From: Ricordea florida
Taxonomy: Eukaryota; Cnidaria; Anthozoa; Corallimorpharia; Ricordeidae
Direction of reading: 5' to 3'
NCBI GenBank assembly: GCA_949710005.1
Contig: OX453273.1
Coordinates: 6,716,206 to 6,780,205 of the forward strand
Length of the DNA: 64,000 bases
Shown: positions 6,166 to 64,000 of the stretch, one piece after another
Position numbering within the stretch: position 1 is the first letter of the stretch
Layout of the letters: each line of letters opens with the position of its first letter
Notes under the pieces: generated by a model
The model's input: only the letters and a program-made list of their open reading frames with translations
Told to the model about the DNA's origin: nothing
Database searches by the model: none
Made by a program: the position numbers and the translations under genes

Positions 6166-6239
6166 AGGTTCCGTATTTAAGGGTAACTTTTGAGCAACTC
6201 TTTAAATAAAAAGCAACTTTTTATGACTTTTGTAGCCAA

Positions 6240-9832: not shown

Positions 9833-10006
9833 GCAGACTCTCATTAGAAAGCAATTCTGTTTTGTTTTGCATTTCTCCTTGTTACTCGGGTAGGCCGAGT
9901 CTAGGTTTCGGTTTCCTATCTATCAGTCTATCTATCGTCGTGTCACGATTTTATATGCTGACGTAATGCATGCAATCGAGACATTCACGAAAACGAGGCC
10001 ACTAAC

Positions 10007-10806
10007 GAGCGGCCGTCTGTAAATATCGAGAATTCGCCGTCAAAACTGAAATTTCGAATTCCTTTATATTTGGTCAGAAAAACCCCTTTGGTAAAACATT
10101 TATGAAAATTATAATCAAAGTTTCCAAAGAGTTTCCTTTTTGGAGAAACTGGGCAAAAAGTGAAATGCCGTGTCAACGTCACAGCCGACATCAAAAATTC
10201 GTGCGAATTAGCACTTTTTCAAATCACTTGGAACTAAAAACGGGTCAACTTAACGCGATAATCTTTTGCAGGTGAGTGAGGTATCACCAGATCAACCCGA
10301 AAATGTAAAACTATTTGAAAATACTGATTTTGCACACATCGGGTTTAAAGCGCCGAGATTCCTAGTCTTAGTGCATAGGAAAACGCTGAAAATTAAGGAA
10401 ACTTTAAAAGTAAAAGTCGCATACTGGTACATCGAAATTCGTAACAAAATTTACATCAGAGGAAAGCTCTATTGCTGTACTTTAACATATAAAAAATCTG
10501 GCTTGGGCAATTCAAAGGCCACCGCTTGAGAGAGGTAAACGCATTGTGAATTTTCATGTGTTACGTAAAAGGAATTGTAACTGTCACGCAAGCACAAGAA
10601 AGCACATTTTTAGATACGTTTTATAAAATCTTAGTTGTGGATGTAGAAAACCCTTTCTCAAATGCGAAATTTGAGGCTTAATGAATCTCTTATATATTTT
10701 TATCCATTGTAGCTGAAAATTCCAGGTAAAGCAACTACTAAATTCGTAACCGGAATTGAAAGGTCAAAATCCATGTCAAACGTAAACAACACGAAAGTAA
10801 CACTGA
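10007..10806 (+). repeat. left terminal inverted repeat
   Basis: This pairs with 14028-14806. It contains two divergent short open frames (10194-9985 minus, 10266-10529 plus). Both recur in the right arm with only a handful of residue changes. They may be arm-encoded peptides or simply open because the arms are near-identical copies. Confidence 0.85.
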
Positions 10807-10852
10807 ATACAACTCAATTGAAATTTTCCTGAAGGTGCGTTGCTTTAACATA

Positions 10853-10980
10853 ATTCGGATTTGGATTTGTGATCCGAGATAACACGGATCATGAAGCATC
10901 AAAGGAACCGATTTATCCAATCTGGGCAAGGAATCATTGGTTTCTTTGATGAGCCACGATCCGTCTGATCTCGGATCAAC
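10853..10980. repeat. imperfect hairpin
   Basis: GTGATCCGAGATAACACGGATCATGAAGC-like sequence at about 10873-10905 pairs with the block at 10931-10980 (TTTGATGAGCCACGATCCG, GATCTCGGATCAAC). Its function is unknown. Confidence 0.5.
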
Positions 10981-11184
10981 GCCGTCGCGATGTTATGGTC
11001 TTCGTTGGCGGTGCAATAAAAGGCACTGTGGTGTTCCGCCCGGAATGGCTGTACACAAGTCTAAGACAGTAAAGGGCGATAAAAGTATCGACTTTCCTCA
11101 GTCAGCACTGATATCTCAGACATCTGGCACTCTTGTTTCCATTGGAAGTCGCAAGTACAAAGTATAGCGTTGTTTTTCAGGGGT

Positions 11185-11196
11185 GGGGGGGGGGGG
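11185..11196. repeat. G12 homopolymer
   Basis: An uninterrupted run of 12 G, part of a GGGGTG-rich tract. It could form unusual structure or be assembly-sensitive. Confidence 0.9.
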
Positions 11197-12473
11197 TGTC
11201 TAGTCTGCGAGACAGGTGCTAGTTTTGGTCTGGGGACGGAAAGCGAGAAAAAGAGAGGGGCTCAAGAGATTTCGTTCGCTTCTCTTTCCCCGGTTCTTTC
11301 TAGAGCCCATTTTCAAGGCCGCTTACGAGGGCGGGAGAGAGAAAAGCGCTTCTTTCACACGTCCCGATACCGTGTATTACAAAACGAAAGAATTCTTATT
11401 TTGAGTTTCGTGTAGGCACTTAGAGTGTTGAAGTGCAGAAAATACCGACTAGCCCGCAAAGAAGGTAATGTTAGGTAGCAGCAAGCCAATGATTAAACCA
11501 AGGACATATTAGAAAATAAAGGCTCTGAACAGGCTAGCCTCTGTATACTGATAGCAATCCAGCGTACCGACAGATAATTCTCTCTAAGTTGGACGCTCCT
11601 TCGCTTCCTTCTATCTATTCGCTCCAGACAGGTGCCACTAAAAGTCAATTGGTGTAACTTGGCAGCAAAAGATTGCAATTTCAAAACCTATAGCGAAAAG
11701 GAAGCTGTCTTATTATATGAGTAAATCCCTATGCGCTAGTTCAATTAACTTGAATACTTTAAAAAACCACCAGTGAATTCGATTTTGCTCCGTTCACGAT
11801 AAGAAATGCCTGTTCACGTTTATTAGGTACTCACACCTGAATGATTGTGATAAATTCATTGTTTATTTTTGAATAGAAACTAACTGGAAGCCTTTTTTCT
11901 AGCAATCTGTAGACGATGAAGGTAGCACATTTCTCAAATTTTGAACGAGAACAGGCGCGGATCTAGAATAAATGCAGGGTCCGGGGGCATGCTCACCCGG
12001 TAAAATTTTTTGGATTTTAACTGCCTTAATTCCCATTCCCTTGATCTCTGAGTCATTCAGACAGGATATTGGCCAGTTCCATTCTCCTCAGATTTCAGCT
12101 TGAAAAGTTTTTCTTTTTATTAAAAATATATTATTCATTATGGAAAATCTGACTGATTCCTGTAAAACGGTGGCCCGAGCCTGGAGATGGAAAAGCAGCC
12201 GACTTGTTCTTTTGGAAAAGATATGTGACATTAGTCATGTTTACTTTGATTCATGACTGATGCAAATAACAGTGATAAGAGAAAAAGATGCACCCACCTT
12301 TCTTGGCTAAAAAGAAAACCTTTTTGACATTAATCTTGCGTGGGAAGCGGTATCCGATCCCCTCTTTCTCTAAATGTCCGAAAGTAAGTACATGACAGTA
12401 GTTATTAATGATACTGGATACAAAACTCAGTGTATTCTAGTCTGATTGTTTTGTTTCCCTCGTTCTTTCACAG

Positions 12474-13191
12474 GGAAAGCGATAGCAGTAGCACCTCAGA
12501 CGATACCGCTGAAAAGTTTCAATATCTAACGTTAGATAGTCACGATATCACTTAGGCCTTTTTTTTAATCACTTGGTTTACGGGACCGCCGACGTTGAAT
12601 TTCCCGATTTCAGAAAAAAAAAAAAATTGAAAATTTTGTATTATTTTTTTCCCGCCGATCGTATACTTCAAATGTGCTTTTTTATTTTCAAAAGCGGAGA
12701 AAATAAAACCTCATATTGTCATATTTTCGGAAATAAAACTATTCAAATGGCCAAGGTGTGTTTTATTTTCATTCATTTTCGTGAGATGTAATAGTCTACC
12801 AACACAACCTCGCACCCAGTGCCGAGTTACACTCAGGACTGTAATGTATTAGAGCACCAAACTGAGCCCTAGGTACGAGGTTTGTGTTACATTGGCTACG
12901 AAACATCTTATTTTTCCCTCCGATATAAAATTGTACACGTTGCCTGAAAAAAAAGGTTGAATACTCTATTTTATTTTTATTTTTATTCCCCCCTTTGACA
13001 TTAGTTTTTTCCAGAAATGTCCCGTAAACCAAGTCATTAAAAAAAAGGCCTTACATGGCTAGTTCAGAAACCACTTGCACAGCCTCTTCCGTTAGTTAAA
13101 CGGATGACGCAGAGCAGAAAAAGTCAAAGTTGAACGACTTTCTAATATCCTGTAGCGTTAAGCCGCTAGGAAACAAGAGTTGGGTAGAATG
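12474..13191 (+). pseudogene. exon-3-like remnant of the zinc-finger/transposase-like family, split by a MITE
   Basis: After a TTCTTTCACAG acceptor, one frame reads a Ser/Asp-rich start (ESDSSSTSDDTAEKF). It then meets the MITE at 12555. If the MITE and one TTA copy are skipped, the frame continues (HDIT then YMASSETTCTASSVS), hits a stop, and resumes with KLNDFLISCSVKPLGNKSW. This recalls exon 3 of the gene at 56842-61689, which runs from an acidic serine-rich stretch (EESDEGSSLDNE) into QVQLNRFLQLRDVSPVRH. The similarity is short and judged by eye. If real, it is a dead gene fragment. Confidence 0.5.
12555..13050. mobile_element. 496-bp Harbinger-like MITE with TTA duplication
   Basis: The ends GGCCTTTTTTTTAATCACTT and their inverse (with one mismatch over about 32 bp, through GGTTTACGGGAC) bound the element. 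TTA lies on both sides (12552-12554 and 13051-13053). A TWA target and GGCC ends are typical of the PIF/Harbinger superfamily. It has no coding capacity. It interrupts a decayed open frame of the host element. Confidence 0.85.
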
Positions 13192-13213
13192 AATATTGGC
13201 ACATCCCATAGTC

Positions 13214-13404
13214 TGTGCTCAAAATAATTTGTGTGAGTTGGTCAAAGCGAACTCTCTATCAAAGTTGAAATAGGGAGACCTGCAATTCTGACGGAGCTTG
13301 GGCTGCTTGTTCCTGTTCCACCAGTACGGAGAAAAGCAGCGGATATTAACCTGTTGCAAGAATTGGTTCAGGAATGTACCTGTATGAATTTAGAGTCGCG
13401 CTAG
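13214..13404 (+). pseudogene. C-terminal remnant of the zinc-finger/transposase-like family
   Basis: One frame reads NNLCELVKANSLSKLK. After a frame change it reads RPAILTELGLLVPVPPVRRK and then INLLQELVQECTC before a TAG. The same pattern closes the gene at 56842-61689: NICELVKK, then LGLDISDISPQKRKKPYI, then LTQLVQECTC. The order and spacing of CELVK, LGL, RK and LVQECTC match well. The frameshift and the missing upstream body make it a pseudogene fragment. Confidence 0.75.
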
Positions 13405-13499
13405 AAACTTTCAGCGGTAGGAAATGACTGTTAAAGAATTTGTTATTTCAGCTAAAAGTTTTGTTTCCTCTTCTTACGAAACTTACCTTTCGTGCCAAT

Positions 13500-13515
13500 C
13501 CCCCCCCCCCCCCCC
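13500..13515. repeat. C16 homopolymer
   Basis: An uninterrupted run of 16 C inside the 10-14.8 kb element. Confidence 0.9.
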
Positions 13516-14027
13516 GCATTCTTCCTACGGACGTTACTCTCTGCTTCCAAAAAGAAAAAAGAGAGTTGTTGACTAAAAGGAATCCGAATGTAAAAGGCCT
13601 CAAATTAGAGCCTAAGAAAAGTGTGTCGGAAGGAGCTTGTGAACAAATGGAATGGTAGCAGCCGTGAGGCTTTTTAATATTATTGCATTTTTTTTATTTA
13701 TTTATTTATTTTTTTTGCCGCGAATTTTTCATGCAACTGTGCTGTTAAAATACGCTTCTATGAGTTATCATCGGAGCCAAATTAGGGTTGATCGGTGTAC
13801 GTAACGTTTTTTTCATTTCTAATTTGTGACTAATTGTATGGATGACTGTTTGATCAGTGTCTGTATTTTAAAACTTATTTGAAGTGTGATATTTCCATCA
13901 CTTCGCTAACACAACATTTTAACGAGGAATTGCAAAAAAAAAACACTTAAATAGCATCTTTTCGATAAAATGTTTCTAGATGTAATTTGCAAATGAGAAA
14001 AAAATTTGATTGCCCTTGTTTTTACTT

Positions 14028-14806
14028 TCGTGTTGTTTACATTTGACATGGTCTTGACCTTTTCAATTATTCGGGTTACTAATTTTCTGTCACGTCATTC
14101 GAAGTTTTCAGCTAAAATAGATAAAAATACATTAAAGATTCATTTTAGCCTTACATATTGTATATGAGAAAAGATTTTCAACATTCGCAGCTAAGATTTT
14201 ATAAAATGTGTTTCCTTATGCTTGCGTGACAGTTACAATTCCTTTTACGTAACACATGAAAATTCACAATGCGTTTACCTCTCTCAAGCGGTGGCCTTTG
14301 AATTGCCCAAGCCAGATTTTTTATATGTTGAAGTACAGCAATAGAGCTTTCCTCTGATGTAAATTTTGTTATGAATTTCGATGTACCAGTATGCGATTTT
14401 TACTTTTAAAGTTTCCTTAATTTTCAGCGTTTTCCTATGCGCTAAGACTAGGAATCTCGGCGCTTTAAACCCGATGTGTGCAAAATCAGTATTTTCAAAT
14501 AGTTTTACATTTTCGGGTTGATCTGGTGATACCTCACTCACCTGCAAAAGATTATCGCGTTAAGTTGACCCGTTTTTAGTTCCAAGTGATTTGAAAAAGT
14601 GCTAATTCGCACGAATTTTTGATGTCGGCTGTGACGTTGACACGGCATTTCACTTTTTGCCCAGTTTCTCCAAAAAGGAAACTCTTTGGAAACTTTGATT
14701 ATAATTTTCATAAATGTTTTACCAAAGGGGTTTTTCTGACCAAATATAAAGGAATTCGAAATTTCAGTTTTGACGGCGAATTCTCGATATTTACAGACGG
14801 CCGCTC
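14028..14806 (-). repeat. right terminal inverted repeat
   Basis: Inverse of 10007-10806. The 87-residue open frame of the left arm recurs here on the minus strand (14547-14284) with only a few substitutions, and the divergent frame recurs at 14619-14807. Confidence 0.85.
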
Positions 14807-14848
14807 TTACATACTGGCGTAATCTTTACTGGAAATTATGGCGAACCT

Positions 14849-15926: not shown

Positions 15927-16424
15927 TATGGTGGCCCATCGTTCTCATAGAAAAAATGAACGACAAAGATGAAATAAAGGAAAATATATTTGTGAAATAA
16001 GAATAAAATGAAAAAAAAATGAAAAGAAAAGGAAAATAAAAAAAATATATTAATAGAAAAAAATAAACATAAAAAAGTAAAATATCTTTGTAAATCAAAA
16101 ATAAAATGAGAAACCTTGAAAGATAAAAAATAAAAACAAAATAATACAGATAAAAAATAAAAACAAAATAAAAAGATAAAAAAATAATAATAAAAGTTTC
16201 GTTTTTGAATTTGATTTTGCAATGAGAACGATGGGCCAAAGCATGGCCCAGTGTTTTCATAGTGAAATCATCCGTGAAATTCAATGTCGTGGATCGGCCC
16301 AGCGTTCTCATAGCCAGCGATGTCCGAGAGCAGCGGTTCACTTAGTAAATCAAAATGGCGTCCAGTGGAAACATCCGAAACAGTGATTAGGAAGGCGACG
16401 AAGAACTTAAGTTAGACCTGCAAC
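15927..16424 (+). repeat. left terminal inverted repeat with subterminal motif copies
   Basis: The GGCCCATCGTTCTCAT-type motif occurs at about 15932 (+), 16222 (-), 16245 (+) and 16296 (+). 15985-16200 is A-rich simple sequence. The long minus-strand open frame across this arm is a consequence of that composition. Confidence 0.8.
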
Positions 16425-16625
16425 GATACGTTCTACAAAATCTGAAGCGTAGGGAAATTCTCGATTTTGTACAAAGAGATTTTCCTGAGTATGCGTGGAG
16501 TCTTGGAACGTTGAGCCGGAGACCTGCGTTTTTCGGCATCAACTACGTAAACTACAACACAAACGTCCAAGAAGTTGAGCGAGCTGTTTGTGAGGAGTTA
16601 GAAGGGCCGGGTCAGTTAGTGTAAA
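16354..16625 (+). pseudogene. N-terminal fragment of an integrase-like transposon gene
   Basis: Starting at an ATG, the frame reads MASSGNIRNSD, a TAG stop, EGDEELKLDLQ, then REILDFVQRDFPEYAWSLGTL and FFGINYVNYNTNVQEVERAV, ending near 16625 where the Penelope-like sequence starts. The middle resembles the helix-turn-helix N-terminus of multi-copy integrase-core proteins in cnidarian and fish genomes (from memory). The catalytic part is absent. The right arm repeats only the first part (19688 downwards) and has TGG instead of the TAG, so the left-arm stop is a local mutation. Confidence 0.5.
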
Positions 16626-19360: not shown

Positions 19361-19616
19361 TTTCGATCCTAATCTTGTGGATCTCGTCAGTTGCCGATTG
19401 AATAAAAAGACTGATAGAGATGTGTTCTCGGTATCATTCACAAAAAGAGTGTTTCTTGACCATTTTATACTCGTTCGAAGGATCGAAAATCCTGTGTTTC
19501 TATTGGCTCTCTATGTCTTGGTCAATTGTGTGTTTACATCGAGGATCCTTGCGAGCCCAGCATGAGTTGTGTTTCTTGTGTTGCCTAAAATGCAAAATTT
19601 TGAGTAGATACTGTGA

Positions 19617-20212
19617 TAGTTGCAGGTCTAACTTAAGTTCTTCGTCGCCTTCCCAATCACTGTTTCGGATGTTTCCACTGGACGCCATTTTGATTTACTA
19701 AGTGAACCGCTGCTCTCGGACATCGCTGGCTATGAGAACGCTGGGCCGATCCACGACATTGAATTTCACGGATGATTTCACTATGAGAACACTGGGCCAT
19801 GCGTTGGCCCATCGTTCTCATTGCAAAATCAAATTCAAAAACGAAACTTTTATTATTATTTTTTTATCTTTTTATTTTGTTTTTATTTTTTATCTGTATT
19901 ATTTCATTTTTATTTTTTATCTTTATTATTTTAATTTTAATTTTTTATCTTTATTATTTTATTTTTATTTCTTATTTCATTTTTATTTTTTATCTTTATT
20001 TTTTTATTTTTTTTTCAAGGTTTTTCATTTTATTTTTGATTTACAAAGATATTTTACTTTTTTATGTTTATTTTTTTCTATTAATATATTTTTTTATTTT
20101 ATTTTCCTTTTCTTTTCATTTATTTTTTCATTTTATTCTTATTTCACAAATATATTTTCCTTTATTTCATCTTTGTCGTTCATTTTTTCTACGAGAACGA
20201 TGGGCCACCATA
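19617..20212 (-). repeat. right terminal inverted repeat
   Basis: Inverse of 15927-16424, longer because its T-rich simple repeats (19850-20160) have expanded. Motif copies lie at about 19733 (-), 19782 (-), 19806 (+) and 20192 (-). Confidence 0.8.
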
Positions 20213-43500: not shown

Positions 43501-46500
43501 CCAGCTGTTTGAGAATAAGGAATTTTGTGTTGTGAATGGCCCCTCTTCTCATCCCAAAGCTTTGTTGGAAACAAAGGTTGCAGAGGTGCAGTTCATTCCC
43601 TTTCAATATATTGAGATACAATTATACTATGCAGCTCTTTCAAATGTTTAATCTCATTCAGTCTTAAAGTGTTGCAGAGTTACAGCCCTTCTGTTTGAAA
43701 ATCTAAGACCATTGTGTGTGTTACTTGCCTGTGTGGGATTTATTGTTTTGTTCATCACTAATGCAGAATGATATAGCTAGGAGCTGTGTACCACCCCAAT
43801 GCCAGAGCTTCTGACATGGGTTACAAGTGCGTTAGGCTGAGCGCAATATTTTGCTATTAATATAAACCCAGATTGATATACCAAATGTAGAAAATGTGCA
43901 AGGAGAATTGAGGGAAGTTGTCAACTCGAGAATATTGACTGATTTAACCTCAAATTCTCCAGACTAGATTATAAGGAAAGGTATACGGATCTCTCAAGGG
44001 AGTTAAAGTACAAATCATTTGAGTGAAATGGTTCTTAGAACAACAGCTAGAGCAGAAATCATTTTGACCCTCAAACTGTAAAATGCTGAAGTGTCGAACT
44101 CTCTGAGCACTGTCATTAACTTACATTCAGTGCCTCATGAAGGTTTTTCAGTTTTGTCACTTACATAATATTAAGTTAAAGTTGCAATTAAAATTAATCC
44201 TTTGCTTTCATATAACAGAAAGCTTGCTATATAATATGAATCATTACTTTTTACCATCAGAATGGGGGCACCTTGACTCAAAATCCAGGACCAGATACAT
44301 TTTGTGTAATTGCTGAAAGAATCAATGTTAGAGTTAACAATATTATCAGGTAAGAAAATAGTGCACAGACCTAGGGTGATATGGCTTCACTGCTGAGTTA
44401 GAACAGCTTCATACTTGTAACCCAAAGGTCATATATGATATTTTGCTCAGTGTCTATGTTATTTATTATATCTCTCAGCCAGCATGCACCTAGTGATTGG
44501 TCAATTTAGTGGGCCATACTTCACTGTACGGCCTGCTAAATTCAAAAGTTTGTTTTGGTTGCCAAAGAGATATAATAAGATATAATATAGAGATATAATA
44601 AACCTCATTTTCTTGGTCCATGCGGTAAGTCATGGATCCTCACTTTTTCCGCTCAGATTTATGGCTTGCACTTTGCACTTGTTCCATAAATTTGAGTGAA
44701 AACACTTAGTCCGGAACTTACAGTTTGGACCTTGAACTCGGTTAGTAAGAGATGTTTATTGCATTTGAGCTTGGTGCTAGTTTTTTTCAATTGCAGGGTC
44801 ATCTTTATAGTGATTTGTAGTGCTAGGTAGTCAAATTGTTTCAAGGGCAGTTTGGAATAAATGAGCACATTCCAGTAAATTTTAGACTAAAAACGTTACA
44901 CAAGCTGGTAGGGCTAGGGCCTATTCATACAAACGTTTGCTCAAAAGCATTTGAAAATGTCTTGTTGAAGCAAGCCTGTGATGTCATCAAACAGTTTCAT
45001 CTTCTCAAGATGGGCTATGAATCCAAAATTGAAATCAGCATAAAGTAGCAATTATGAGTCTGTCTGAATAATTTTTTTCATGTACATCCCTAGCAATAAA
45101 TTCAAACGCAGTCCCCTCACATTGTACTTGCAGTGAACTAATTAAATGTATCATTGTTGCAATACGCTATTGCATGTTAATTTAGCCAATGATTGTATAG
45201 ATGGTTATTCCCAATACGGACCATTCTTTGTTTATATTCAATCAGCTAAAGATCGTGCTAAAATATAATTATTCATGATGAAGTGTGATCTGGTAGAAAA
45301 CCGTTAGGACGCCGAATAAAATTTCACTTGTAGGAAAAGTTGTCTTGTTGGAATATTTCCTCATACAGGAAGCATAAAGCACATGAGGAAACATGGTGTC
45401 AGGAGTGGAAGTCTAATCTACGATCTGAAAACCGAAGAAATTCATCGATAATCGACAATCGAGCGAATATTTTTGATTTCACAGGCCACAAGTTCACCAT
45501 GGAAGTTCTCGCGAAAGGACCAATCTTGGATTGGACAAACGACGGAAAACTTCATGAACGTTTCCTTGAATGGAAAAAGAAGGTGTCGATTTTCTGCAGA
45601 GGTCTTGTGATGACCAAGGCAGACCCAGAGTTTGTATTTCTATGTATTTATCAGTGGTCGGGTGAACGCGGACAAAATATTTTGGACAAGGCAACAATTT
45701 CATCCGATGATCGCAAGAAATGGGAAATACATCTCGGAAAGGTGGAGGAGCAATGCAAACCCAGAGGGAGCAAACTAGTCGCGGCTACACAGTACAAAGT
45801 GCTCACTCAAGGTGATATGGAATTACCAGAGTACATCGAAAAGTGCAGACTAGTAACTGATGCATGCGGATGGCCAGAAAACGCGAAGGACATGGCTCTC
45901 AGGAACGCTATTCTCCTCGGTCTAAAGAATCCAAACGTTTATCAAAAGTGTTTGGAAGAAGACCAGGACTCGCTTACCGCCGAACGCGTGATTGAAATTG
46001 CAACTCTGTTGTACAACAGCGATCGTCAAAGATCAATTATGCAGACTCTGAGTACAGCAACTGCAGCAGCAACTGCAATACAGCAAGGATCAACACAGAT
46101 TCACAAAGTGCAAACAAAGCATCAAAAAGGCGGGAAATCAACGGAGTGGTCAAATCGAGACAAAACGTCTAAAGATAAAGAGCATGGTGAGACAAAAAGA
46201 CAAACTTGTTTTTGTTGTGGAGCAAAACCTGCTCACGCTAGATCGCAGTGTCCGGCCAAGGATGTTATTTGTTACAAGTGTGGAAAGAAAGGACATTACA
46301 AAAAGTGCTGCAAGAGCAAGACAGGTAAACGAGGTACCATTGGTGAACCTAGGCAGGTTCAAGTACATGGTTTACAAGCACCGCTGACAGGAGCCAGTGT
46401 CAATCAGACTTCAGTTCGTGATCCTACACAGGACTACCACATGATGTTTGGTCCACAGGTACTACAGGACGACCAGCACACAATGTTTCACCATATTCAG

Positions 46501-49500
46501 ACTTTTCATGTGAAGAGTATTAATGACACCTCAAGCAAGCACATCAAGCCTCTTTGGTTAAGTACAGCAAGTGGAGGACCCATGTATCAGGTTGAATGCG
46601 AGATCGATACAGGCGCAGGATGCAATGTGATGCCTTTGTATCTGCACAAATCTTTATTTGGAGACAAGAGTCTTACCCCTACCCCTGTGCAGATATTCGG
46701 ATACGGAGAATCCCCTGTAACAAATCTAGGAGCGTGCACTATTGCGATTCATACTGGTCTTAGACAACAGCCACAAATGGCGACTTGTCAAGTGACTGAT
46801 ACTCGAGGGTATCTCATCCTAGGCAGAGAAACAGCCCAGCAAGTCGGCTACATTGCCTTTCCAGAGGTAACCCCACCCTCCTTAACCAGTACGCCGCAAA
46901 TCCATACAAGTGTTAATGCCCTGCGACCTGATTCCAGTGAGGTTAACAAGCCTACATGCGAGGTGTTGGATGATGCTGTCATCCTGAATGGAAAGAGACA
47001 CTGTTTGCCCATAACAAAGGAGTATGTGTTATCCGAATTCAGAGATATATTCGAAGGTATAGGAAAACTCCCAGGGGGAAAGTACCACATCCAACTAAAG
47101 CCAGACGCCCATCCTGTACAGCATCCACCTCGAGCAGTACCTGAGAAGAAGAAAGCAGCATACAAAGAAGAGCTTGAAAGATTGTGCAGTTTGGGAATCA
47201 TTGAATCAGTCCAGGGACACACAGACTGGATCAACAGCGTCGTTCCTGTCTCTAAGCCTGACGGTTCAATTCGACTATGCCTAGATCCAAAGGACCTTAA
47301 CAAGAGCATCAAAAGGAACCAGTACTATACGAAGACTATTGACGAAGTTAGTGCTGAACTCCACGGAGGAAAATATTTTACACTTGTTGATGCCAAGTCA
47401 GGGTATTGGATGGTGGAACTGGACAAAGAAAGTTCACTCTTAACTACTTTCAACACTCCATGGGGAAAATACAAGTGGCTCCGACTTCCCTTTGGTCTTA
47501 AAGTCAGTGCAGACGTATTTCAGGAGAGGTTAAATGCGGTCCTTAAAGATGTGAAAGGAATCACGGGATGCATTGACGACATCCTTACAAAAGGGATAGA
47601 TTCCAAGGATCATGACGTGAATCTACTCCAGTTACTTGAAACGGCACGAATGAACGGAATTAAGCTCATTCCAAAGAAGCTGCAGTTTAAAACAACTAAG
47701 TGCGATTTCTTCGGACAGACCATCACGCCAGAGGGTATGAAGGTAGACGACAGAAAGGTCGAGGCCATTAAACAGATGAAAGCACCAAAGGACAAGAAAG
47801 CTCTGCAGAGTTTCCAGGGAATGGTCAAGTATTTGAAACGCTACTCAGGCAAGTTGACGAGACTGTTCGAACCACTCAAACCACTGCTTCGGGAGGAAAC
47901 GGAATGGATCTGGGACTCTTCCCATCAAGATGCCTTCGATGCCATTAAAGAAGAGCTCTCCAGGACCCCAGTACTAGCGTTCTTTGACCGGAAAGCAGAA
48001 CACGTTATTCAGACTGACGCTTCCATGAAAGGATTAGGTGCCGTTTTGCTGCAAGAAGGAAAACCAGTGATCTATGTATCCAGAACTCTCACTCCTGCCG
48101 AGGAACGTTACTCGAACATCGAGAGGGAATTGCTAGGAGTGGTATTCGCCATGGAGAGGCTTCACAACTATGTGTTTGGTGAACCAGTCAGAGTTCAAAC
48201 AGACCACAAACCTCTAGAAACGATTTGGAAGAAGAGTATTGCCACTGCAAGCCCAAGACTTCAACGACTTCTTCTGAGGCTTGCAAAATACGAAATTCAA
48301 GTCGAGTACATTTGTGGGAAGGACAACTCAATTGCAGACGCCCTTAGTCGAGTCGACCCTCTCAGTCCAAAACCTATGGACTCAAAGCAGATGGATGTGA
48401 TTCCAGTGCATCACATCACTTCAACTGTTCCTGCCACAGACAACCGAATTGACAGAACCAGAATTGCCACCACTGCTGATCCAGCCTTGAGCCAGTTAAG
48501 GCATTATATCTTTCACGGTTGGCCGCTTCAGAGGCAGCAACTCCCAGAAGGATTGCAACATTATTGGAATTACCGTGAAGAACTTGCAGTCGAAGATGGC
48601 CTGATATTCAAAGCACATCGACTTGTGATTCCGACTTCACTTAGAGCAGAGTATCTTAAGGATCTTCATGTGGGCCACTTAGGAGAAGAGAAAACTCTGT
48701 TGAGAGCACGAGAGACAGTCTTTTGGCCCGGGATCTCGGATGACGTGAGAAATGCAGTTAAATTATGTGACGTATGCATGAAGTACAAGCCTGCTCAACA
48801 GAAGGAACCACTGGTACCGCATGATGTGCCCAGCTTGCCATGGTTCAAACTTGGAGTTGACATATTTGAGCATCGTTCTAACCATTATCTGCTGGTTGCT
48901 GACTACTTCAGCAAGTTTCCTGTTGTTAAGAAACTAACCAATCAGACGGCGAGACATGTGATCAGTCTTCTCAAGACAATATTTTCAGAATACGGGGTAC
49001 CAGCAACGGTGTACGCAGATCAGGGAACCCAGTTCGTGTCTCAAGAATTCAAACAATTTGCCGTGCAGTACAGATTCGAAGTGCAACACTCTAGCCCAAG
49101 GTATCCTCAGTCTAATGGTTTCATAGAGGCCATGGTCAAAGTAGTAAAGGGCATAATGGAGAAAGCCGAAGACTCGGGTTCTGATCCCCATCTTGCAATG
49201 TTAATTTATCGTGCGACCCCAATCAGACCAGGTCAGCTCAGCCCAGGAGAGATGCTTTCCCAGCGGAAATATAGAGCACTCCTTCCCATCCATCAATATC
49301 TGCATCCCAATCTGGAGATCAGCAGGGAAGCGCTACTAGCACAGAAACAAGCCCAGCGTGATGGCTATGATCAGACAGCCAAGAAACTTCAAGATCTACA
49401 ACAATTTCAGAGTATCCGATTCCAGTTAGATCCCAAGAAACCAATCTGGCAGAAAGCCACGGTGGTACAGCAGCCAAATGAAAGTTCGCCCAGGCGATAT

Positions 49501-52500
49501 GAGGTACAGGCTGAATCCGGTGCTCGCTATTTCAGGAATCGTCGCCATATTCGTCCAGCGATTGAGATCCAACCAGAAGAATTAAATCAGGTCCCATCAA
49601 TTCCCGGAACCGAACCAAAGTCACCGGTACCTGGACTTGTCAAGCAGCCCAGCTCAACAACAGCCGATGTTTCTGATCAGCCATTGCCCAAACAGTGTGT
49701 GCCGGGAAAGACCCCGGTCGGAATTGCGTTGTCTCGTCCACGATGAACTATTAGACCACCAACGAGACTAATTGAACATATCTAGAGACACTATAACAAT
49801 TTAAGAGAAATGTACTTACAGTGTATCGTATAAGTAATCGTGTTTTGACAAATTTTCGGATCAGCATCTCAACTTTAGCACATACGAGGGTATGAAATGT
49901 GTTCCAACTTTAGAGTACACACGGGTGCAAGAATCCTATGCTAGTTTTCTAGTCAATTATGTCATCATCTCTAAAAGAGGGGGGATGTTGCAATACGCTA
50001 TTGCATGTTAATTTAGCCAATGATTGTATAGATGGTTATTCCCAATACGGACCATTCTTTGTTTATATTCAATCAGCTAAAGATCGTGCTAAAATATAAT
50101 TATTCATGATGAAGTGTGATCTGGTAGAAAACCGTTAGGACGCCGAATAAAATTTCACTTGTAGGAAAAGTTGTCTTGTTGGAATATTTCCTCATACAGG
50201 AAGCATAAAGCACATGAGGAAACAATCATGTTTCATTTTTTCTCTTTAAAGTTCCAAACAATATGATGTGGTACAGGCATCTTGGCTGATACAGTGTTTG
50301 GTAGGTGTCCTCAAGAGGCATTTTGACATGGAAAAACAAACTTTTTTAAATTGAACAGGTAGTACAGTGTAGTAGACCCTTCTAAATAATTTAAAATGTG
50401 TAATTTGATTGGTCAATTATTGACCAATCAAAATGCACATACTGTGAGATATTATTATAATAGTCAATCAGTAGACTGCATGCATAGAAAGTCTAGGTGG
50501 ATGTTGATGGGCTAGTGATGAGCGAGAAGACTTGAATAAAACCTTTTGTTAACCCTTTAAGCCCCGAGGGGTCACCCTGGGACGAGTAAAATTGTCTGGC
50601 GTTAGCCAGAGTAAAATCTGTAAAGACACTACTGGAACTTAAAGGGTTAAGGAAAAAAGAAACAGGTGAAACACTGACGGTAATTGTACAAACTACTTGC
50701 AATGACAAATGAACAGCAATTACTGGCACCCTTTTTAATCAAATACTAACTCCATTGACAGGTATCACTAATACAGTGTTGTACTATTCCCATTTAAGGA
50801 ATGTGGTCATTTGTTGCCATGGCTACCAAGTCACATGTTACACACTTCACCATTAACTGCTGAGAAGTTTGCAGAAGAATATGATTGTCATGGAGACAGC
50901 TTTACAGAAGATGCCACAGTAGAGAGCCTTCGGAAAGTGTTTAAGAATGTGCAGGAACAGGTATACAGAGGAGTAGATGGCCTTTTTGAAGTTCTCTATT
51001 CTGTGCTTGCAAAAAGGCAACACAAATTATTATTTGACTCATCTCAGACAGGTCTCTTAGTACCTTTCCATTAATACATCCATAAAATTCTACAAGCACA
51101 TCCATGTCCAACATACTCCATCAGGTTCCAGTGGTGTCCAACATAATCCACCGGAGATCCAGGAAGTCCTATACCCCATTCACACCAAAGCTTAGACATG
51201 TTTAAACGCTGTTTAGTTAAACGCGGATTAAAATTGTTTCCTTTGTAAAAGCTGCTTACTGACATAATTTGTCAAATACAAATTTAGCACAAATGGAAAG
51301 ATCATGTTAAAATTCATTTGAATCCTGTGTAAAAGCCTTTGTTCCAGCATTTGGTTATCAATTTTCACATTTTATAATCTGGTTTAACTGAACATGTTTA
51401 GTTGGTGTGAATGGGGCATTAGTCATGAAAATGCTTTGTCCTGGAGGACATGACCTGAGACAACTTAGCATGCTACTTATATGCATGTAATATATGTCAT
51501 TCTAGAGGCATAGTATGCAACTTGAGTCTTGCTGTGTGTGTTGGACAACCATCACAAAACCCTGCCTACAATACATACCTGTCCAGAAAATTGCACATTG
51601 CTCATTGCATGTACATTTCTGATGGAAAATGGTTCTTGCTTAGAAACTTACATGTAACATGGTTTTCTCGGCTATTATTTATCAGTTTTCATGTTACAAT
51701 TGTCACTCTTAATTATTATTATTATTATTATTATGTTAATTATAACTAATTGATTTATTACTTGCTGTTCTCCCTTTAGAACTCTGCTGTTACCCCAACA
51801 GCTGATGAAATAGCTGCCACAGAGCAACGCTATTTTCCTAATGACTCCCCTCTAGGGTTATTCAGAACATGCAGGTGGGATTAGACATTTTTGGTTTCTT
51901 CTTACGCCCTAGTGGTTAAACTAGCTTTTGTAGTAAGTTGTAGACTTACAGACTCAATTAGTTTTGGTTTCCTTCTGTATTTGATCAATGAATATAGTTT
52001 AGTTTATCGTATATTGTATTCACATATAAATATGGTGGCACTCAGGGCATGTGGAGATCAGTGTGACCAGTGGCCACATGCTGACAAATGAGTCAGATAA
52101 TTAGGGTTGCAAAAATGAACCCTTTAAGCCCCAATAGTGTCTGTATAGATTTTACTCTGGCTAACGCCAGACGATTTTACTAGTCACAGGGAGACCCCTC
52201 GGGGCTTAAAGGGTTAAAAACTATCTCCTTAAGAAATAACTGAGCCTTCTCTTCTTTGTCTGCAATACAAAATGTACAGCTTTCACCATGATAGGTAGTC
52301 TTTTAGACTGTATTTGACTCACAAGACTTGTACTTTCAGGGTATATCTTGACCTGTACAGCAGTATTGGAGACACCGAAACGGTATGTTGTGGCATAGCC
52401 AGCAGGCATAACTTAATATCTATAACCAGGTCAGGGAAGCAGAGGAATTGAAGAGAAGCTTTGAAAAGAATCATGGCATGGTATTTGGAACAAATTGAAA

Positions 52501-55534: not shown

Positions 55535-55790
55535 ATTCCAAGACTTTGTGATGTTTTGCGAGATTATTAAGAGTGGATGTCTCTAAAAATCGAAGAAAAA
55601 TAAAAAAATCGCGGACATTGTCAAAAATTCGTTTCGTCCCATTTTTTGTCTACAGGTAGCTATAGGTACTACCTAAAGTGAAATGAGGTTAGTTTGTGTA
55701 AATATTCATTTTGACGGGAATAAACCGTTATGAATTGCATTATCGAAAATGAGTGCGTGCGAGCTCGAAATTATGTAGTTTTCAGGCCGA
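55535..55790 (+). repeat. left terminal inverted repeat (diverged)
   Basis: Pairs with 62549-62821; the 19-bp exact core is at 55711-55729. Confidence 0.7.
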
Positions 55791-56841
55791 CCTTAGATGA
55801 ACTAAAATGCGACAGCAGGAACTGCCTAGCTATAAATATATATAGTTGGCCTTCCTTTACCAAGATATACTGATATTTTTTGTATCGTGTCCTTCCTGGT
55901 GAAACCACGGGTTAATTACCAGAGGACGTCTTCGCCATTTTTAGTTCACGTCAAACCCAGCCTAATATATAGTGGCAAAAATGCATGTGGTGGTGTCTCA
56001 AAATTTCCAGCAATACTATCACGAGGGCTTATAAGGTAGGTCTTCAAATTTATCGTTTCATTTCTCTGGTATCTTCTACTGTTTCAATATACCAACCAAC
56101 CAAACTTCGGTAAAATTGTAAATGGCGCCATATTGAAATGAACAAAATCAACATTGCAGTGACACAAGCAAACCATTGTTTGAGTCGCAGCCGCACTTAG
56201 CTTGTTATGTTTGCTTTGATATCAATAGTTCTTTACCTTAGAAATCTTTTATAGGCCCTTATTATGCCGCTTGGAAGATACTTTCGAAATACTGTCCTCT
56301 GCAAGTTGGTGTAAAGGGGGCCGACCGGCGCACTCATTGAAGCCACTGAGCCGGTGATGAGTAAACTTTGAAAGTTACTTGTTGTCGTCATTTTCTATAG
56401 CGCGTCGCAACCCAGTTTGGTTTAGTCGACTTTGATCCTAATTTTGGCTTTTTTGACGTCCCACACACAAAAGATCCCGTACAACACGGCAGGCACCGCT
56501 AGCGATTTGCACAGGTTCCTGTTTGCGTATCGACCGCGTGACATGTGATAATCTGTCACGTAACCAGCTGATGAACTAACAATACATTCTGCAACACAAA
56601 TGAAATCGAAACAAATATATTGCCCTAATGAACAAAAAAGATACAACAAAGAAACAGACTTAACAAAACGTCACAAATTTATAACGTACAGTGTAAATTT
56701 TATGGAACGAAAACAACGATTTAATTTTCCCACGGGGAAAAAATGTAACCAGTTAACGAAAGTAAACAAAAAGCAAAAGCGTAACAATCGTCGATAAAAG
56801 GAATAAAGATAACGGTTGCTTAAACTCCAGCAGAAAAAAAA
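55791..56841. other. upstream region of the zinc-finger gene
   Basis: No gene is recognised. Only short open frames on both strands. It presumably holds the promoter, but no clear TATA or initiator stands out. Confidence 0.35.
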
Positions 56842-59800
56842 ATGTCTTGTTCTTTCCTTGATATTGTTGGTGGCGTTTGTGGTGTAGAGGAACGCGCAAG
56901 GCATCCGTCCACTCAGACAGTATCACTGTCATCGCGCAGCAAGGATATCAGAAACCACAAGAGTTTTTTACAGTTTTCAGGTGTTGAGACAGAGATAGAA
57001 CTTATCTTAGCAAGAAGCGGGATTTTCGCGAAGCCCGTCAATTTTTCGGAAATGACTGTTTGCCCGTTACATCGATCAAGCCTTGGAATCGGATGGAGAA
57101 GAGCTAGTAGATTATGTTCTGTGCCTCAAGATGTCTCCGGTCACAAAAAAGAATTAGAAAAAGTACCCGCAGCAGAAAGGGGAATTAGTTTGCAGCAATC
57201 AATACACATTTATGAGCTTACGAAATACCTCGTACCCGTCGGATCAGGTAGGCGACTACAATGTTTATTTTCACTTTATGCAAGGATAAACATCCGCGTA
57301 TAGCTTCTCATTTCACGCAGGGTACTTGGCGGAAATCACAGAGTTCGTATCCTTACTTCAAATCACTTCACTGCCGCGTAAAATAACGCCAAGTTTAACA
57401 GCTAAATTATTTTCATGTCTCACGAGTTTTCAGGATTTTTGCAAATACTTTTACGTCGGAATCTTGAGCAAACACTGGCATTTACTCAGCATTTTCACCT
57501 TCTTCAAGACTTATTCAAAAGGGGAACAGTCGAATTAAAATATTTTACAGATATTAGAATTCCTTCCAACAGTGCTCGGAAAAAAGGAAAGGAACGTAAA
57601 AGACTGACTTATGACAAGGTAAAATACAGATTGCGTAATCAATTTGAGGTTTGTGGGGCTTTTTTCTGGGCTAGGTTTGTTCCTTTGCCACATTCAGAGC
57701 TATTTGTTTAAGGGGGATGTGTAAAGTAGAAGAAAATAAATTAATTCTTTCTCTCCAAATATTAAAGGCATTTGTGTGCGATGTCGACAGTCCCTGGCAA
57801 AAACAAAAAATCAGTTAGAATCGCAGGATTTGGGTGCCACAGGAGGCGTGGAAAACATCGCAGAAGGTCGATGTGGTCTCAGCTTGGTGAGTTTCTTCAA
57901 AGTGTTAATGAAAGTGGAAAACCTCAACGCATTCTCTGAATTCTCCCTTCTCTGCCCTTTTCAGCGGTTCAACCCACGCGGGAGAAGGGTATTTCCAGGA
58001 TAAATTGCATGCGCATCCTCAAAATGCCGCCATTGCAGCCGGTCAATGACTGGGCAAGACCATACATGGCACAAGAATTGGAAAAGAGTGCCCTGCGCGG
58101 ATAGCCAATCAAATCCCAGAATATTGCCAAATCATAAAGGTTTTAAATTAATATACGGCTTCTAAAGTTTTTTCTAAATGCTCCAAATGGAAAATAATAC
58201 TGAGTAGTAACTGGATAAAGATACCAGGATAGGTTATCAGTCAATTAAATTAATTATCAAATATTACTTTCCAGCTCGCATGCGACTTGCGCTTTTATAC
58301 ACGACACCTCGCGCTTGCACACGGTTCATCTCATTTTGAAGCCATCCAAAGCAATGTGTTCACTTTTTCGTCAGGTTGATGACCAAGCGAGTGACTTTGA
58401 TATTCCTGCCATTACTTGTCCTGTAACTGTTGGTGATGAATCACTGCCAGGAGGTTCCACATCCAGACGGCAGAGCCTTTTTTTTCCGCAAGAAGATTTC
58501 GAAGAGAGTGATGAAGGCTCCAGTCTAGACAACGAGTGCCAGGTGCAGCTTAATCGCTTCTTACAGCTTCGAGACGTCAGTCCAGTACGTCACACGTTAT
58601 CAGTGCCGTGGAATACAGCGCACGAGCGTACTAAACGCAGATACGTGCTACGGAAAGCTCAACAATGTATATCTGCAATGCTTGATCTCCTGGCACCTGA
58701 AAATTCGCAAGAACTGTGGACGGAGCTTTGTGATCGTCATGCTGTAAGCAGAGAGAGTCAGGTTGTGGTCGTGGGCAGAAGTGAAAAAGAGACGGAGCTT
58801 CTTAGTGCATTTGCTGAGAGCTACTTGAACGCGCAACATTGGAGCACCAGACGACAAATACTCTCTTTGATGGCAGATAAGTTATCCCTGAAGGAGATGA
58901 GAGAGTTTATTCCAGCTGTTACTAGCTATCGCTACAACATTGCCAGACGCCACAGGCTGTTAAATGGAAGAGCTGCTCCTCTTCCAAACCAGGATAAAAA
59001 GAGAATGAGGATTGAACCTGTAAAATTAGAACATTTTGTTTCTTTCATAACGAGTCCACACGTAATTCAAGATGTTCCTTTTGGGGAAAAACTTCTGAAA
59101 TTGTCAACTGGCGAGATCATAAAAACACCCAACGTGATCAGAACAATGATACCAGAGCGCATTGTCCAGCAGTATCAACAATACTGCTGTGAAACCAACT
59201 TTGAGCCTATGAGTAAGAGAACCCTACAAAGAGTTTTGACCGTGTGTTCTGCATCTGTTCGCAAGTCTTTGCAAGGACTTGATAACTTTTCAGCACAAGG
59301 AGCGGAAGCATTTGATCATTTAGAGAAACTCGTAGACAAGCTTGTTGACTGTGGAAAGACTCAGCAATGGGCGAGGGAAATTAAGCAGCAACTTCGTTTG
59401 TCGAAGCAGTACCTAAAGGGCGACTACAAGATGGGTGCATATTTTATAATTATGCGTTGCCTTTGCGGAAGTGATGTAGTAGACTTCTTACTATGATACA
59501 CGGCTACCTTTTTCTTTCTCTCCAAGTCCTTTTTATGCTTAATTCATGAAACAAGAGTTTGCAATTTACCGTAATACGCTTACACACATGTATGCAACGC
59601 TGGGAATCGGTTAAGTAATGTTTTTGAAATGTCGATGCGCAAGCGTTGCTTTGCAAATATGCACTGAATCACGGGATTGTCTTTTAATCTTTTTTTTAGG
59701 TACATGCAGTGGAGTCCTCAGAGGTTCCCGATCACTGTCGAATTTATGCACTAAGTGATCCAAGCAATGCAGAATTTCGGGGCTCCTGCGACCATCTCCA

Positions 59801-61689
59801 CAAAGAGTCATGTGTGCAGTGTTATGAGTTAGAGGAAGTCATGCGTATCATAGAAGATGAGTGTTCAGTTGCGCTCTCGTCAGCAGAAAATCAAGCTGAC
59901 ATGCTGCATACTATCAAACAAGCAAGAGATGATATCATTAGCTGGAAAGCCCATCAGCTACGTTCAGTCCACCAAGCTGAGGCAAAGCATTCAGTTTTAG
60001 CCAAACTCGACAGCCGATCGGTGCTGTTAGTCCAAGACTGGGCAATGAAATATATGCCCCGAAAATATCGAGAGGCACAGTCAGATTGGTTTGGGAAGCG
60101 AGGATTGCCATGGCACATTAGCGTTGCCATAAGACGGTCAGAGGGTTCTGAGCACTTTGAAACGCAGACACTTGTTCACGTGTTTCAAAGTTGCGCCCAA
60201 GACAGTGTGACTGTGGCTTCGATAATGCTTGACTGCCTCACTACCCTGAAAAAGGAAATTCCAGACCTGGAAATGGCTTATTACAAACAAGACAACGCTG
60301 GCTGTTATCACAGCGGAAATTCAATCATCTCAGCGAAGCTGGCCGGTGATGCCGTAGGAGTGGCTGTTGTAAGAAACGACTTCTCGGACCCTCAAGGTGG
60401 AAAGGGGGTATGTGATCGCAAAGCAGCAACAATCAAAGGAGACGTTGGAAGGTACGTAAACGAAGGCAATGATGTCATCAACGCTTTACAGCTCAAAACA
60501 GCCATTGAATCTGGCCAAGGAACCACAGGAGTGAACGCAAGATATGTTGCTGCCAAGCCGTCAAGCACCTTTAATATCAAATGGGATGGCATAAGCTTAC
60601 TCAACAATTTTGAGTACAATGAAACTGGCGTACGAGTGTGGAGAGCATTCAATGTGGGTTCCGGTAAAGTAGTGCCATGGGCAAAGTTCGAAGGAGTCAT
60701 GAAGCAGCCCGAAAAATTGGAAATCCTAGAACCCCCATCGCAGAATGTAAGTGGCGCACCGCCTTTCAAGATTGTGAGACATCGACATATCAAGAAAAGC
60801 TCTGTCAAAGCAGATTTCTCAACTGAAAACGAAAACCAAGATCGAAGCAGTATTGGTCAAAATAAGCTAGATGACATGCTTTTCCCGTGTCCAGAGGATG
60901 GATGTGTAAAAGCATACAGTCGCTTTGCAAACCTCCAGACACACCTAGATACTGGAAAACACCAAATGATGCTCGAACAGGAAACTCTCTACGATAGAGC
61001 TAAAAGAGAATATTCTTCCAAGCTGACGGAGGGATGCAGTCGAATTCCAAGCGTTCAAGTTACTGTCCAAGCAAATGTTGACGCCTTGCCGCCTCTTCCG
61101 ATGGGTTGGGCCCTGAAGACTATTAAGAAAAAGGTGCGGTTTACAAAGAAACAGACTGAATTCTTAACTGACCAATTTCAAAAAGGGGAACAACGTGGAC
61201 GGAAAAGCGATCCACAGGAAGTTTCGAAAGCAATGAGCTTAGGAAGAGACCAAGCGGGGGAACGCCGATTTCAACCTGATGAAGTCCTTACGTCGCAGCA
61301 GATTAGTGGCTTCTTTAGCCGTCTTTCAGCAAAGAAGCAATTAGAAGTTACAGCCGCCGGTAACGAAGCAAAAGCTAGTGAAGTCTCAGAAGTGGCCATG
61401 GAGAGTGCCGACGAGGACGAAATTTCCGCCGAAGCTGAGAGTCATCTATCTGCTGTGTGTGCAAATGTGATGAAAGATGTGGCTATCCAGCATCCGATTG
61501 TATCTTTCGATCTTAACATCTGCGAACTTGTAAAAAAACGTACACTCACAACTTTAAGAGTGGATAGGCTGAGACATGTGCATAGACCTTGGGCTGGATA
61601 TTTCTGACATTTCACCTCAGAAGAGGAAAAAGCCATACATCGCACGACTCACACAATTAGTCCAGGAGTGTACCTGCACTTCCAAGTAA
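56842..61689 (+). CDS. multi-copy cnidarian zinc-finger / transposase-like protein, probably decaying
   Basis: Exons 56842-57247, 57768-57886, 58375-59430 and 59700-61607 (61689 if a frameshift is allowed) join in phase; about 1,190 codons. Exon 1 has CPLHRSSLGIGWRRAS, and the exon 1/2 join makes PVGSGICVRCRQ, a Cys/His zinc-binding start. Exon 3 has AQHWSTRRQILSLMADKLS and TIPERIV-type TMIPERIVQQYQQYC. Exon 4 has PDHCRIYALSD, VQDWAMKY (Asp640), KQDNAGCYHS (Asp725), GKGVCDRKAATIK, a C2H2 finger (CPEDGCVKAY..HLDTGKH, about 925-950) and a homeodomain-like tail (RFTKKQTEFL..FFSRLSAKKQ). I recall this as a large family of uncharacterised cnidarian proteins; its function is unknown. The exon 3 donor is AAG|AT instead of AAG|GT, and a 2-bp loss near 61571 shifts the last 40 codons, so this copy is probably inactive. 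Confidence 0.75.
59431..59699 (+). other. intron 3 with a broken 5' splice site
   Basis: Family homology and phase both place the exon end at CTACAAG (59430), but the next bases are ATGGGT, not GT. The acceptor TTTTTTTAG at 59699 is normal. The next GT, 4 bp further, would shift the frame to an early stop. Confidence 0.65.
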
Positions 61690-62548
61690 CTGAGCACTGT
61701 ACGTTTCACGAATAACTGATTCGCGCGCTAATTATAAAAGGCGGTGCGTATACAATTCTTAAGAGAGCGTTGCGTGACAGCAGAGTTCTACATATCGCAT
61801 TTCAGTAACTCGAGCTCGCCACTACTTGTGGCATCTCTCGCAATTTGTGTTGACGATTTTCAGTATATTCGAAACTGGCGAGTGCAGAAGGCGCAGAGGG
61901 GATGCAAATGCTCAAATTCATGTTCACTGGATGCGAAGCAAACGTAAACTAACGGCTGTGTGTCAAATTTTACCTGTTGTGTGCAATTCAATTGTTCAAC
62001 CTGTTTTCTGCAGAATTATGCGGAATTATGGCGCGATTCACAGGGTAGGAAAAGTCGAAATTTGTTTCTCCTGTCTCAGTGTATGAACATAAAGTGTAGT
62101 TGTAGACATTTTAATATGTTGCTAGTCATTTCAAAGGCCAGTGAAGATGTAACTGACCAAAACAGTTATTTGTGTACAACGCGTTTCATTTTGTTTTTAT
62201 GCATCTCATTATGGCGTCATGGTATTTAACCGAAATACGGCGGGTGATCATCTTTTGATTGTCAAAGGTCCCAAAGAAATAAAACCCAAATCGTAAAGAA
62301 CTATCTTTCAAGGCTTCTTGGAAGTGTTATTGTAAACTTTGAGACACTACCACATGTATTTTTGCCAAGCTATTCTAGGCCACCTTTGTCTTAATTTCAA
62401 AAGGCCGAAGATGTCGTCTCTTAACAGAGACGTAGCTCCTCCACGAATAACACGAGACAAAAACCATCACTTTGTTTCGATAAAGCAAGTCCAACTCTAT
62501 ATTTCTATCGCTAGAAAAGTCCTTCTGTTACATTTTTGTTCATATGAC
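61690..62548. other. 3' region of the zinc-finger gene
   Basis: No further gene is recognised. AATAAA at about 62277 could serve as a polyadenylation signal. Confidence 0.4.
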
Positions 62549-62821
62549 AACTGCCCGAAAAGTGCATAATTTCAGGATCGCGCTTGGTGAAATTTGAACA
62601 ATTGACCCGCCGAAAGTTTTCAACGGTTTATTCCCGTCAAAGTGCACATTTCAAACATCTAACCCGATTTCCGTTACTTTACTATATAAGGCTACCTATA
62701 GGCAAAAAATAAGCCAAATCGATTTTTGGCCGTGTCCGCGATTTTTTCGATAATCTTTGATTTTTACTGACATTTACTCTTAATTCGTGTTTCCTCAATT
62801 TCACATCTGGCTTCTTGGCGA
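62549..62821 (-). repeat. right terminal inverted repeat (diverged)
   Basis: Pairs with 55535-55790; the exact 19-bp core is at 62622-62640. Confidence 0.7.
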
Positions 62822-63088: not shown

Positions 63089-63475
63089 TTAAACACTTCT
63101 GCCCATCTCTACATCTAAAATACATCCCCAGGTCTCTGTACTCAGCGGTCCTAAATGGTTACTTGGTAAATCGTCAACAGAGTTAGGTTTGCTAAACTGG
63201 CCCTGATGCCAACGCTTTTTAACGCCGTTCACTCCGTAGTTGTGGATGAAGATCGCTCGCCACCAGAGACCGTCTTTTCTGTCTTTCTCTATCTCTTCAC
63301 GATCAAGAAAATTACATTTCTTCTTCCAAAGCAAATCGGAGTTGTAAATGAAATCGTACCAGCGTTTACAAGTTTGGGAGGCCTGACAAAGGCTTTTCGC
63401 ATCCAAGTAAGTGAAAATCTCAATCGAAATCTCTGGAGGAAGAACTGTTACGAAATCCGATTTTATCAATTCCAT
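63089..63475 (-). CDS. FBXO48: F-box only protein 48-like
   Basis: Single-exon, 128 residues. The F-box lies at about residues 9-55: VLPPEISIEIFTYLDAKSLC then QASQTCKRWYDFIYNSDLLW. It is followed by GLWWRAIFIHNYGVNGVKKR and a conserved C-terminal TETWGCILDVE. The same layout occurs in vertebrate FBXO48 (LLPAEITFKIF, NSDSLWK, WRVILLRNY, DTWGEILEAE), which is about 155 residues, so this copy is slightly shorter at the N-terminus. Expected role: substrate adaptor of an SCF ubiquitin ligase binding Skp1. The start at MELIKSDFV is the only in-frame ATG ahead of the F-box. It has no introns and no disruptions. Confidence 0.88.
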   Translation of the reverse strand: MELIKSDFVTVLPPEISIEIFTYLDAKSLCQASQTCKRWYDFIYNSDLLWKKKCNFLDREEIEKDRKDGLWWRAIFIHNYGVNGVKKRWHQGQFSKPNSVDDLPSNHLGPLSTETWGCILDVEMGRSV

Positions 63476-64000
63476 AAATCCTTACAACACTAACACATTC
63501 AATCTGTGTTACATATGTTTTTCTTCACTCCTTTTCTGTTGCTTGTATTCAACATTGTCTTTCCAACCAAAGCGAAACTGTACTAACGTTGTACAATCAA
63601 CTGTTTTGTTTACGCGTAACTCAGCTGAGGTCATGCAGCGAACGACGCCTCGCGTATCCTCGCGGGAACCGACGCGGGAACCAGCTGTTATAGCAACCAT
63701 GTGAACGTCGAATATCCCTTCCAGCGGTTTCCCCCATTGACAGTAGTGCTTCAGAAAAAGATTTTAATAGACTTTATACAAGGTGTGTTGAGATGAAATT
63801 CGAGAATTATAGGCCTTTACTTAGTGCGCACTATTTGCTCAATTCACTGGCATGTCTCTCGTATGTCGTTTTGCGACGTTTTGAGCCGTTCTGTGGCTGG
63901 CTGTTTTCAGGCGAAGAATGCGAGCTCAGCTGGGTAAGTGTAGAAGTTCCATTAGCGTCTCTGGGCTTTTCCTCAACCCTTCCTGCTGGTGTAAGAATCT
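63476..64000. other. upstream region of the F-box gene
   Basis: Probably contains the promoter of the minus-strand gene, with GC-richer sequence at 63620-63690. No second gene can be supported before the window ends. Confidence 0.35.

Follow-up and report, generated by a model that had tools for sequence, protein, structure and literature searches.

The window analysed here, 64,000 nucleotides of the corallimorpharian Ricordea florida (GenBank assembly GCA_949710005.1, contig OX453273.1, positions 6,716,206 to 6,780,205 of the forward strand), contains on its plus strand a complete transposon of 7,209 bp (55571..62779), whose boundaries are common to copies lying in unrelated flanks. We read it as a TTAA-inserting class II DNA transposon that carries its own transposase gene, with a probability of about 0.93 that attaches to the mechanism and not to the superfamily under which the element is filed; for the latter, Sola-3 appears the probable assignment. 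An earlier note on this DNA had proposed a large DNA transposon with introns and long inverted ends, and the core of this proposal holds. The features by which class II transposons with terminal inverted repeats (TIRs) are recognised are all present, namely precise inverted ends, a 4-bp target-site duplication (TSD) of the sequence TTAA, and empty target sites elsewhere in the genome.

The left TIR (55571..56154, plus strand) is about 0.6 kb long and starts with GAGTGGATG; the right TIR (62188..62779, minus strand) ends with CATTTACTC and is delimited by its pairing with the left end and by the right-end reads of other copies. In a blastn comparison positions 55566-56154 pair with 62784-62188 at 68% identity over 600 aligned positions (E 2e-53), and the pair scores 207 bits against a maximum of 24.7 bits in 100 dinucleotide-block shuffles. 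Inverted repeats of about 260 bp sharing an exact 19-mer had been described here from the sequence; the repeats are real, but their length is about 600 bp, and the longest exact word common to both ends measures 20 nt, at 55710. The TSD occupies 55567..55570 on the left and 62780..62783 on the right.

Copies were sought in the genome from which the window comes (538 Mb, 48 contigs), with the fourth exon of the transposase gene as query. At least 89 matches were recovered, a lower bound inasmuch as 69 of 755 first-look candidates were scored, and the gene accordingly belongs to a multi-copy family, as the earlier note had it; by our own count from the match table, 28 of the 89 are free of stops and cover at least 600 of the 635 residues. 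Eighteen of the 30 loci of this search form the close group of the window copy (L001-L014, L016, L017, L027 and L028), and wherever the right end falls within the locus the alignment to the window ends at 62783-62786. All 13 readable right ends, that of the window itself (L001) and those of 12 others (L002-L009, L011, L014, L016 and L017), show ACTC followed by TTAA and then by differing DNA. The remaining five loci of the group have no readable right end: L010 runs into N, L012 and L028 are truncated where the locus ends, L028 being the other half of the element at L017, and the alignments of L013 and L027 stop 81 and 18 bases before the locus edge, so that these too may be cut or deleted. 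The left side mirrors this arrangement, with differing DNA, TTAA and then GAGTGG in the window and in five of the eight copies fetched. When the left end was used as a separate query, 32 matches were obtained, among them 13 left-type ends at 95% identity or above, and in 12 of these 13 the match includes the TTAA. Since precise ends are shared on both sides, the element proper extends from 55571 to 62779.

TTAA or a variant of it stands at both ends of 13 insertions. One copy of a related subfamily (L020, subfamily A below) has TTAG on both sides, and the 4 bp are therefore target sequence rather than part of the element. For these 13 insertions, 70 bp of each flank were joined around a single 4-bp site and searched against the genome; 40 of 866 candidates were scored, which makes the resulting counts lower bounds. 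All 40 matches listed span the junction at 98-100% identity without a net gap, and they provide empty sites for at least four of the 13 insertions, in 14, 6, 4 and 16 places. Two of these are paralogous sites for sister copies of the window subfamily (on C14 and C15), each with a single TTAA, one belongs to the family of a second element in the window and one to subfamily A. For the C15 site, the six matching places are all confined to some 0.7 Mb of C15 itself and could represent a single local repeat. Shared inverted ends and a constant-length target duplication at empty and filled sites were what the earlier note had named as support for a transposon, and the copies display precisely this: common ends in unrelated flanks, a constant 4 bp and empty sites.

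Between the TIRs lies a gene of four exons, all on the plus strand. Exon 1 (56842..57247) is an open frame closed by a GT donor, and exon 2 (57768..57886) has an AG acceptor and a GT donor and continues the frame. Exon 3 (58375..59430) is likewise open, and exon 4 (59700..61607) encodes a candidate core of three aspartates (DDD; codons at 60036, 60291 and 60414), a C2H2 zinc finger and a frameshifted C-terminus. The four-exon gene read earlier between the inverted repeats is confirmed inasmuch as the model reads through, to give 1,162 amino acids. All 13 of the 13 diverse copies compared keep D113, D198 and D239 of exon 4, which in the numbering of the window protein are D640, D725 and D766, and W138-H139, H160, C165 and further positions are likewise invariant; the three aspartates fit a DDD transposase in which they would be the candidate catalytic residues. 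An averaged Chou–Fasman profile is weakly compatible with a strand bearing the first aspartate, two strands, a helix, a strand bearing the second and a helix starting at the third, an order that would be that of DDE/D cores. The finger that follows D239 is matched by zinc-finger entries of the PDB at E 0.001-0.002 when the family profile is the query and, in the window protein, by Pfam at E 0.04, below the cut-off. A SAP-like tail is indicated at the C-terminus by Pfam SAP matches in two of the eight relatives scanned (E 4e-4 and 1.5e-3, below the cut-off) and by a PDB match to the thyroid autoantigen 1jjr (E 0.014), which we take to be the SAP domain of Ku70. The proposal that this multi-copy protein is the transposase has stood as far as the family and its residence in an element of its own are concerned; that the protein itself catalyses transposition is what we infer. 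A giant open reading frame of 2294 amino acids at C5:16610097 was rejected, as it runs into N.

The window gene is partly damaged. The splice donor of intron 3, canonical in 12 of 12 other aligned copies, is altered here, and a small deletion near the C-terminus shifts the reading frame. The same frameshift is present in the copies on C15 and C13. Over the right 4.6 kb these two and the copy on C2 share 99.8% identity, but their flanks differ, from which it follows that a frameshifted copy multiplied recently. A damaged copy was thus still mobilised, either because other members of the family supplied transposase or because the tail that it lost is not needed. Of ten other copies readable in this region, three (L005, L007 and L009) keep exons 3 and 4 open at full length with normal junctions, intactness being judged on these two exons alone.

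More distant relatives also have long inverted ends at TTAA. Subfamily A, represented by L020 and L025 with both ends and by L023 with the right end only, measures 8.3-8.4 kb, with TIRs of 0.7-1 kb and ends of the form TTAA|GAGCG (TTAG in L020). Subfamily B (L018 and L019) measures 7.8 kb, with TIRs of about 0.6 kb and ends of the form TTAA|GTGTG. In the copy at L055, 37% identical at the protein level, exons 3 and 4 are fused into one; this copy measures about 7.5 kb, has TIRs of about 0.5 kb and shows TTAA|GAG on both sides; the left end of its relative L073 was not seen. L049 and L050 (34% and 33% identical) are more distant still than L055, and L049-L051 constitute the most distant group encountered. 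TTAA targeting and long inverted ends accompany the protein in the four lineages of this genome whose ends were examined.

The second element in the window (10007..14806, plus strand) is most readily explained as a non-autonomous relative that has undergone internal deletion. That it has 0.8-kb inverted repeats of its own is corroborated: positions 10007-10800 pair with 14806-14022 at 92.6% identity, a figure that reaches 99% in the outer 604 bp. It had also been credited with remnants of the start of exon 3 and of the C-terminus. The latter is reproduced, in two pieces (13196..13383, plus strand; tblastn E 9e-5 with the relative L015); the former is not, an exon-3 query giving chance-level matches only inside the element (E 2.4 and 2.5), and the exon-3 remnant is rejected on these grounds. 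What is present instead is a remnant of exon 1 (10997..11149, plus strand; tblastn E 4e-4 and 1e-4), the match at E 4e-4 covering residues 82-135. The flanking TAAC (10003..10006) and TTAC (14807..14810) together make a TTAA-like duplication with one difference. The element exists in many copies: a search with its left end, in which 40 of 214 candidates were scored, gave at least 40 matches at 97% identity or above, 38 of the 40 starting exactly at 10007, and several pairs of ends lie about 4.8 kb apart. TTAA adjoins ten of the 12 ends read, the two exceptions being the window copy's own. No autonomous parent was found among these copies; a longer one (L069, 7.1 kb) has no complete gene either, but these short remnants again. 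At C4:30830471-30849413 two inward-facing ends of this family lie 18.9 kb apart, and may be either an oversized copy or separate ends.

Several observations weigh against the reading of the window element as a self-encoded, TTAA-inserting transposon and against its filing in Sola-3. Among the eight copies fetched for their left ends, L036 and L038 show none at the expected place, and in L033 the left repeat is interrupted, the locus beginning inside it. Nine of the 13 joined sites, including both from the window, have no empty counterpart among the 40 matches listed. Subfamily B starts with GTG instead of GAG. As to the protein, Pfam, NCBIfam and PDB gave no match that names a catalytic domain, the matches being confined to weak finger, SAP-like or otherwise low-scoring ones, those from Pfam all below the curated cut-offs, and a one-sequence AlphaFold2 model of the core reached a pLDDT of 36, so that the fold is unproven. 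The likeness to Sola-3 is one of description. Separately, at L033 (C11:11542564-11573994) the left inverted repeat is seemingly split by about 24 kb of other DNA, and a 329-bp left-end piece about 24 kb away probably belongs to that copy.

Sola3 elements duplicate TTAA, a target that the passages found in the literature do not themselves state for Sola3; the open-licence PMC articles searched gave no terminus or TSD sequence for this group, and their scope is such that the search does not show the family to be unpublished. Sola transposons are described as having a DDD transposase, a 4-bp TSD, a length of mostly 2-9 kb and TIRs of 11-1124 bp (PMC10741241), and one table gives AT for moth Sola (PMC5704228). 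The elements described here agree with the first of these accounts in their 4-bp TSD (TTAA or a variant in 13 insertions, with empty sites for at least four), in their length of 7.2-8.4 kb and in their TIRs of about 0.5-1.0 kb; the three aspartates invariant in 13 of 13 sequences would make the protein a candidate DDD transposase. The host group points the same way, for Sola-3 is listed with the top DNA repeat families in Siderastrea, Dendrogyra and Colpophyllia (PMC11370458), and in Acropora tenuis its elements are enriched where synteny is lacking (PMC12314368). Judged by this published description, and not by sequence, the element would probably belong to Sola-3. The earlier note had called the transposon undescribed; its features do not contradict published Sola and several corals already have annotated Sola-3, so novelty is not a claim that we carry forward. 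A less likely, though by no means negligible, possibility is that the elements form a TTAA-specific DDD/E superfamily of their own, outside piggyBac, Kolobok and Sola. This would be a fourth such lineage, recently active, in which a DDD core is joined by a C2H2 finger and a SAP-like tail and the inverted ends measure 0.5-1 kb. No library names the protein core, short-pattern scans of bacterial/archaeal and viral collections gave no relatives, and the C2H2 plus SAP-like layout with 40 residues between the second and third aspartates is absent from the passages of published descriptions consulted; against it stand the agreement with those Sola features that could be read (TSD, length and TIR range) and the richness of corals in annotated Sola-3.

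Other assignments fare worse. The TTAA duplication is shared with Kolobok, and the termini 5'-GA...TC-3' of the window subfamily, subfamily A, the L055 copy and the second element fit the 5'-RR/YY-3' given for Kolobok (PMC9587614), a rule that the 5'-GT of subfamily B fails. Published descriptions also place a C/DxxH motif, and in most lineages a zinc finger, between the second D and the last E of Kolobok transposases (PMC9587614; Xenopus Kolobok, PMC6004289), whereas here, if D239 is the third catalytic residue, D198 and D239 stand 40 residues apart with neither feature between them, the C2H2 finger following D239; Pfam scans, moreover, gave no THAP match, and a Kolobok origin seems to us very improbable. 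The same TTAA duplication recalls piggyBac, from which the elements differ in having GAG or GTG ends and TIRs of 0.5-1 kb instead of the CC[C/T]T ends and 12-19 bp TIRs reported for that superfamily (PMC2872659). Long TIRs recall Mutator-like elements, for which duplications of 7-12 bp are given (PMC10741241) against 4 bp here. For both comparisons Pfam returned no transposase match, only the weak C2H2 and SAP matches and other low-scoring ones below the cut-offs. Lastly, a multi-exon gene with a C2H2 finger in many copies might have been a host zinc-finger gene family lying among repeats or amplified by segmental duplication. Copies in unrelated flanks cease to be homologous at one and the same base pair of the inverted ends, for which reason this explanation is rejected, and TTAA is duplicated and empty sites are present; we regard it as scarcely credible.

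For the TTAA-inserting transposon that we favour, the following mechanism may be proposed. The four-exon gene would encode a transposase of about 1,160-1,190 amino acids, in which a candidate DDD core of RNase H-like type is followed by a C2H2 finger; relatives without damage would also have a SAP-like tail that binds DNA. This protein would bind the 0.6-kb inverted ends and excise the element next to GAG...CTC, presumably by cut-and-paste transposition and not by copying, and insertion at a TTAA would duplicate those 4 bp.

The window holds further repeats. An LTR (long terminal repeat) retrotransposon at 45155-50224 has two 239-bp LTRs that are 100% identical, ATCAT (5 bp) on both sides and one open reading frame of 1,450 amino acids with reverse transcriptase, RNase H and integrase domains; we read it as a recent insertion, of Gypsy/Ty3 type from its domain order. 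A long tandem array with shifted self-matches of about 80-84% identity occupies 223-4428, and inverted copies of it lie at 6189-6880. Inverted repeats of about 90-92% identity at 15927-16427 and 19616-20212 bound some 4.3 kb, in which three minus-strand open reading frames tested match no Pfam family. The 0.33-kb inverted repeats at 24942-25437 and 32208-32540, 96.7% identical and 7 kb apart, enclose no open reading frame of 150 amino acids or more. An open frame on the minus strand (63089-63481), some 300 bp away from the transposon's right end, resembles what we take to be an exon of an F-box protein.

A multi-copy coral zinc-finger protein that no library names can now be attributed to a transposase with defined ends and a defined target site, and any annotation of a genome in which proteins of this kind are taken for host genes would be inflated. 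Were the protein to prove unrelated to Sola-3, one more TTAA-specific superfamily would have to be added to those described. The TTAA-inserting element has assayable copies that look undamaged where examined (exons 3 and 4), and it offers a handle on a transposon group that is reported to be abundant in corals.

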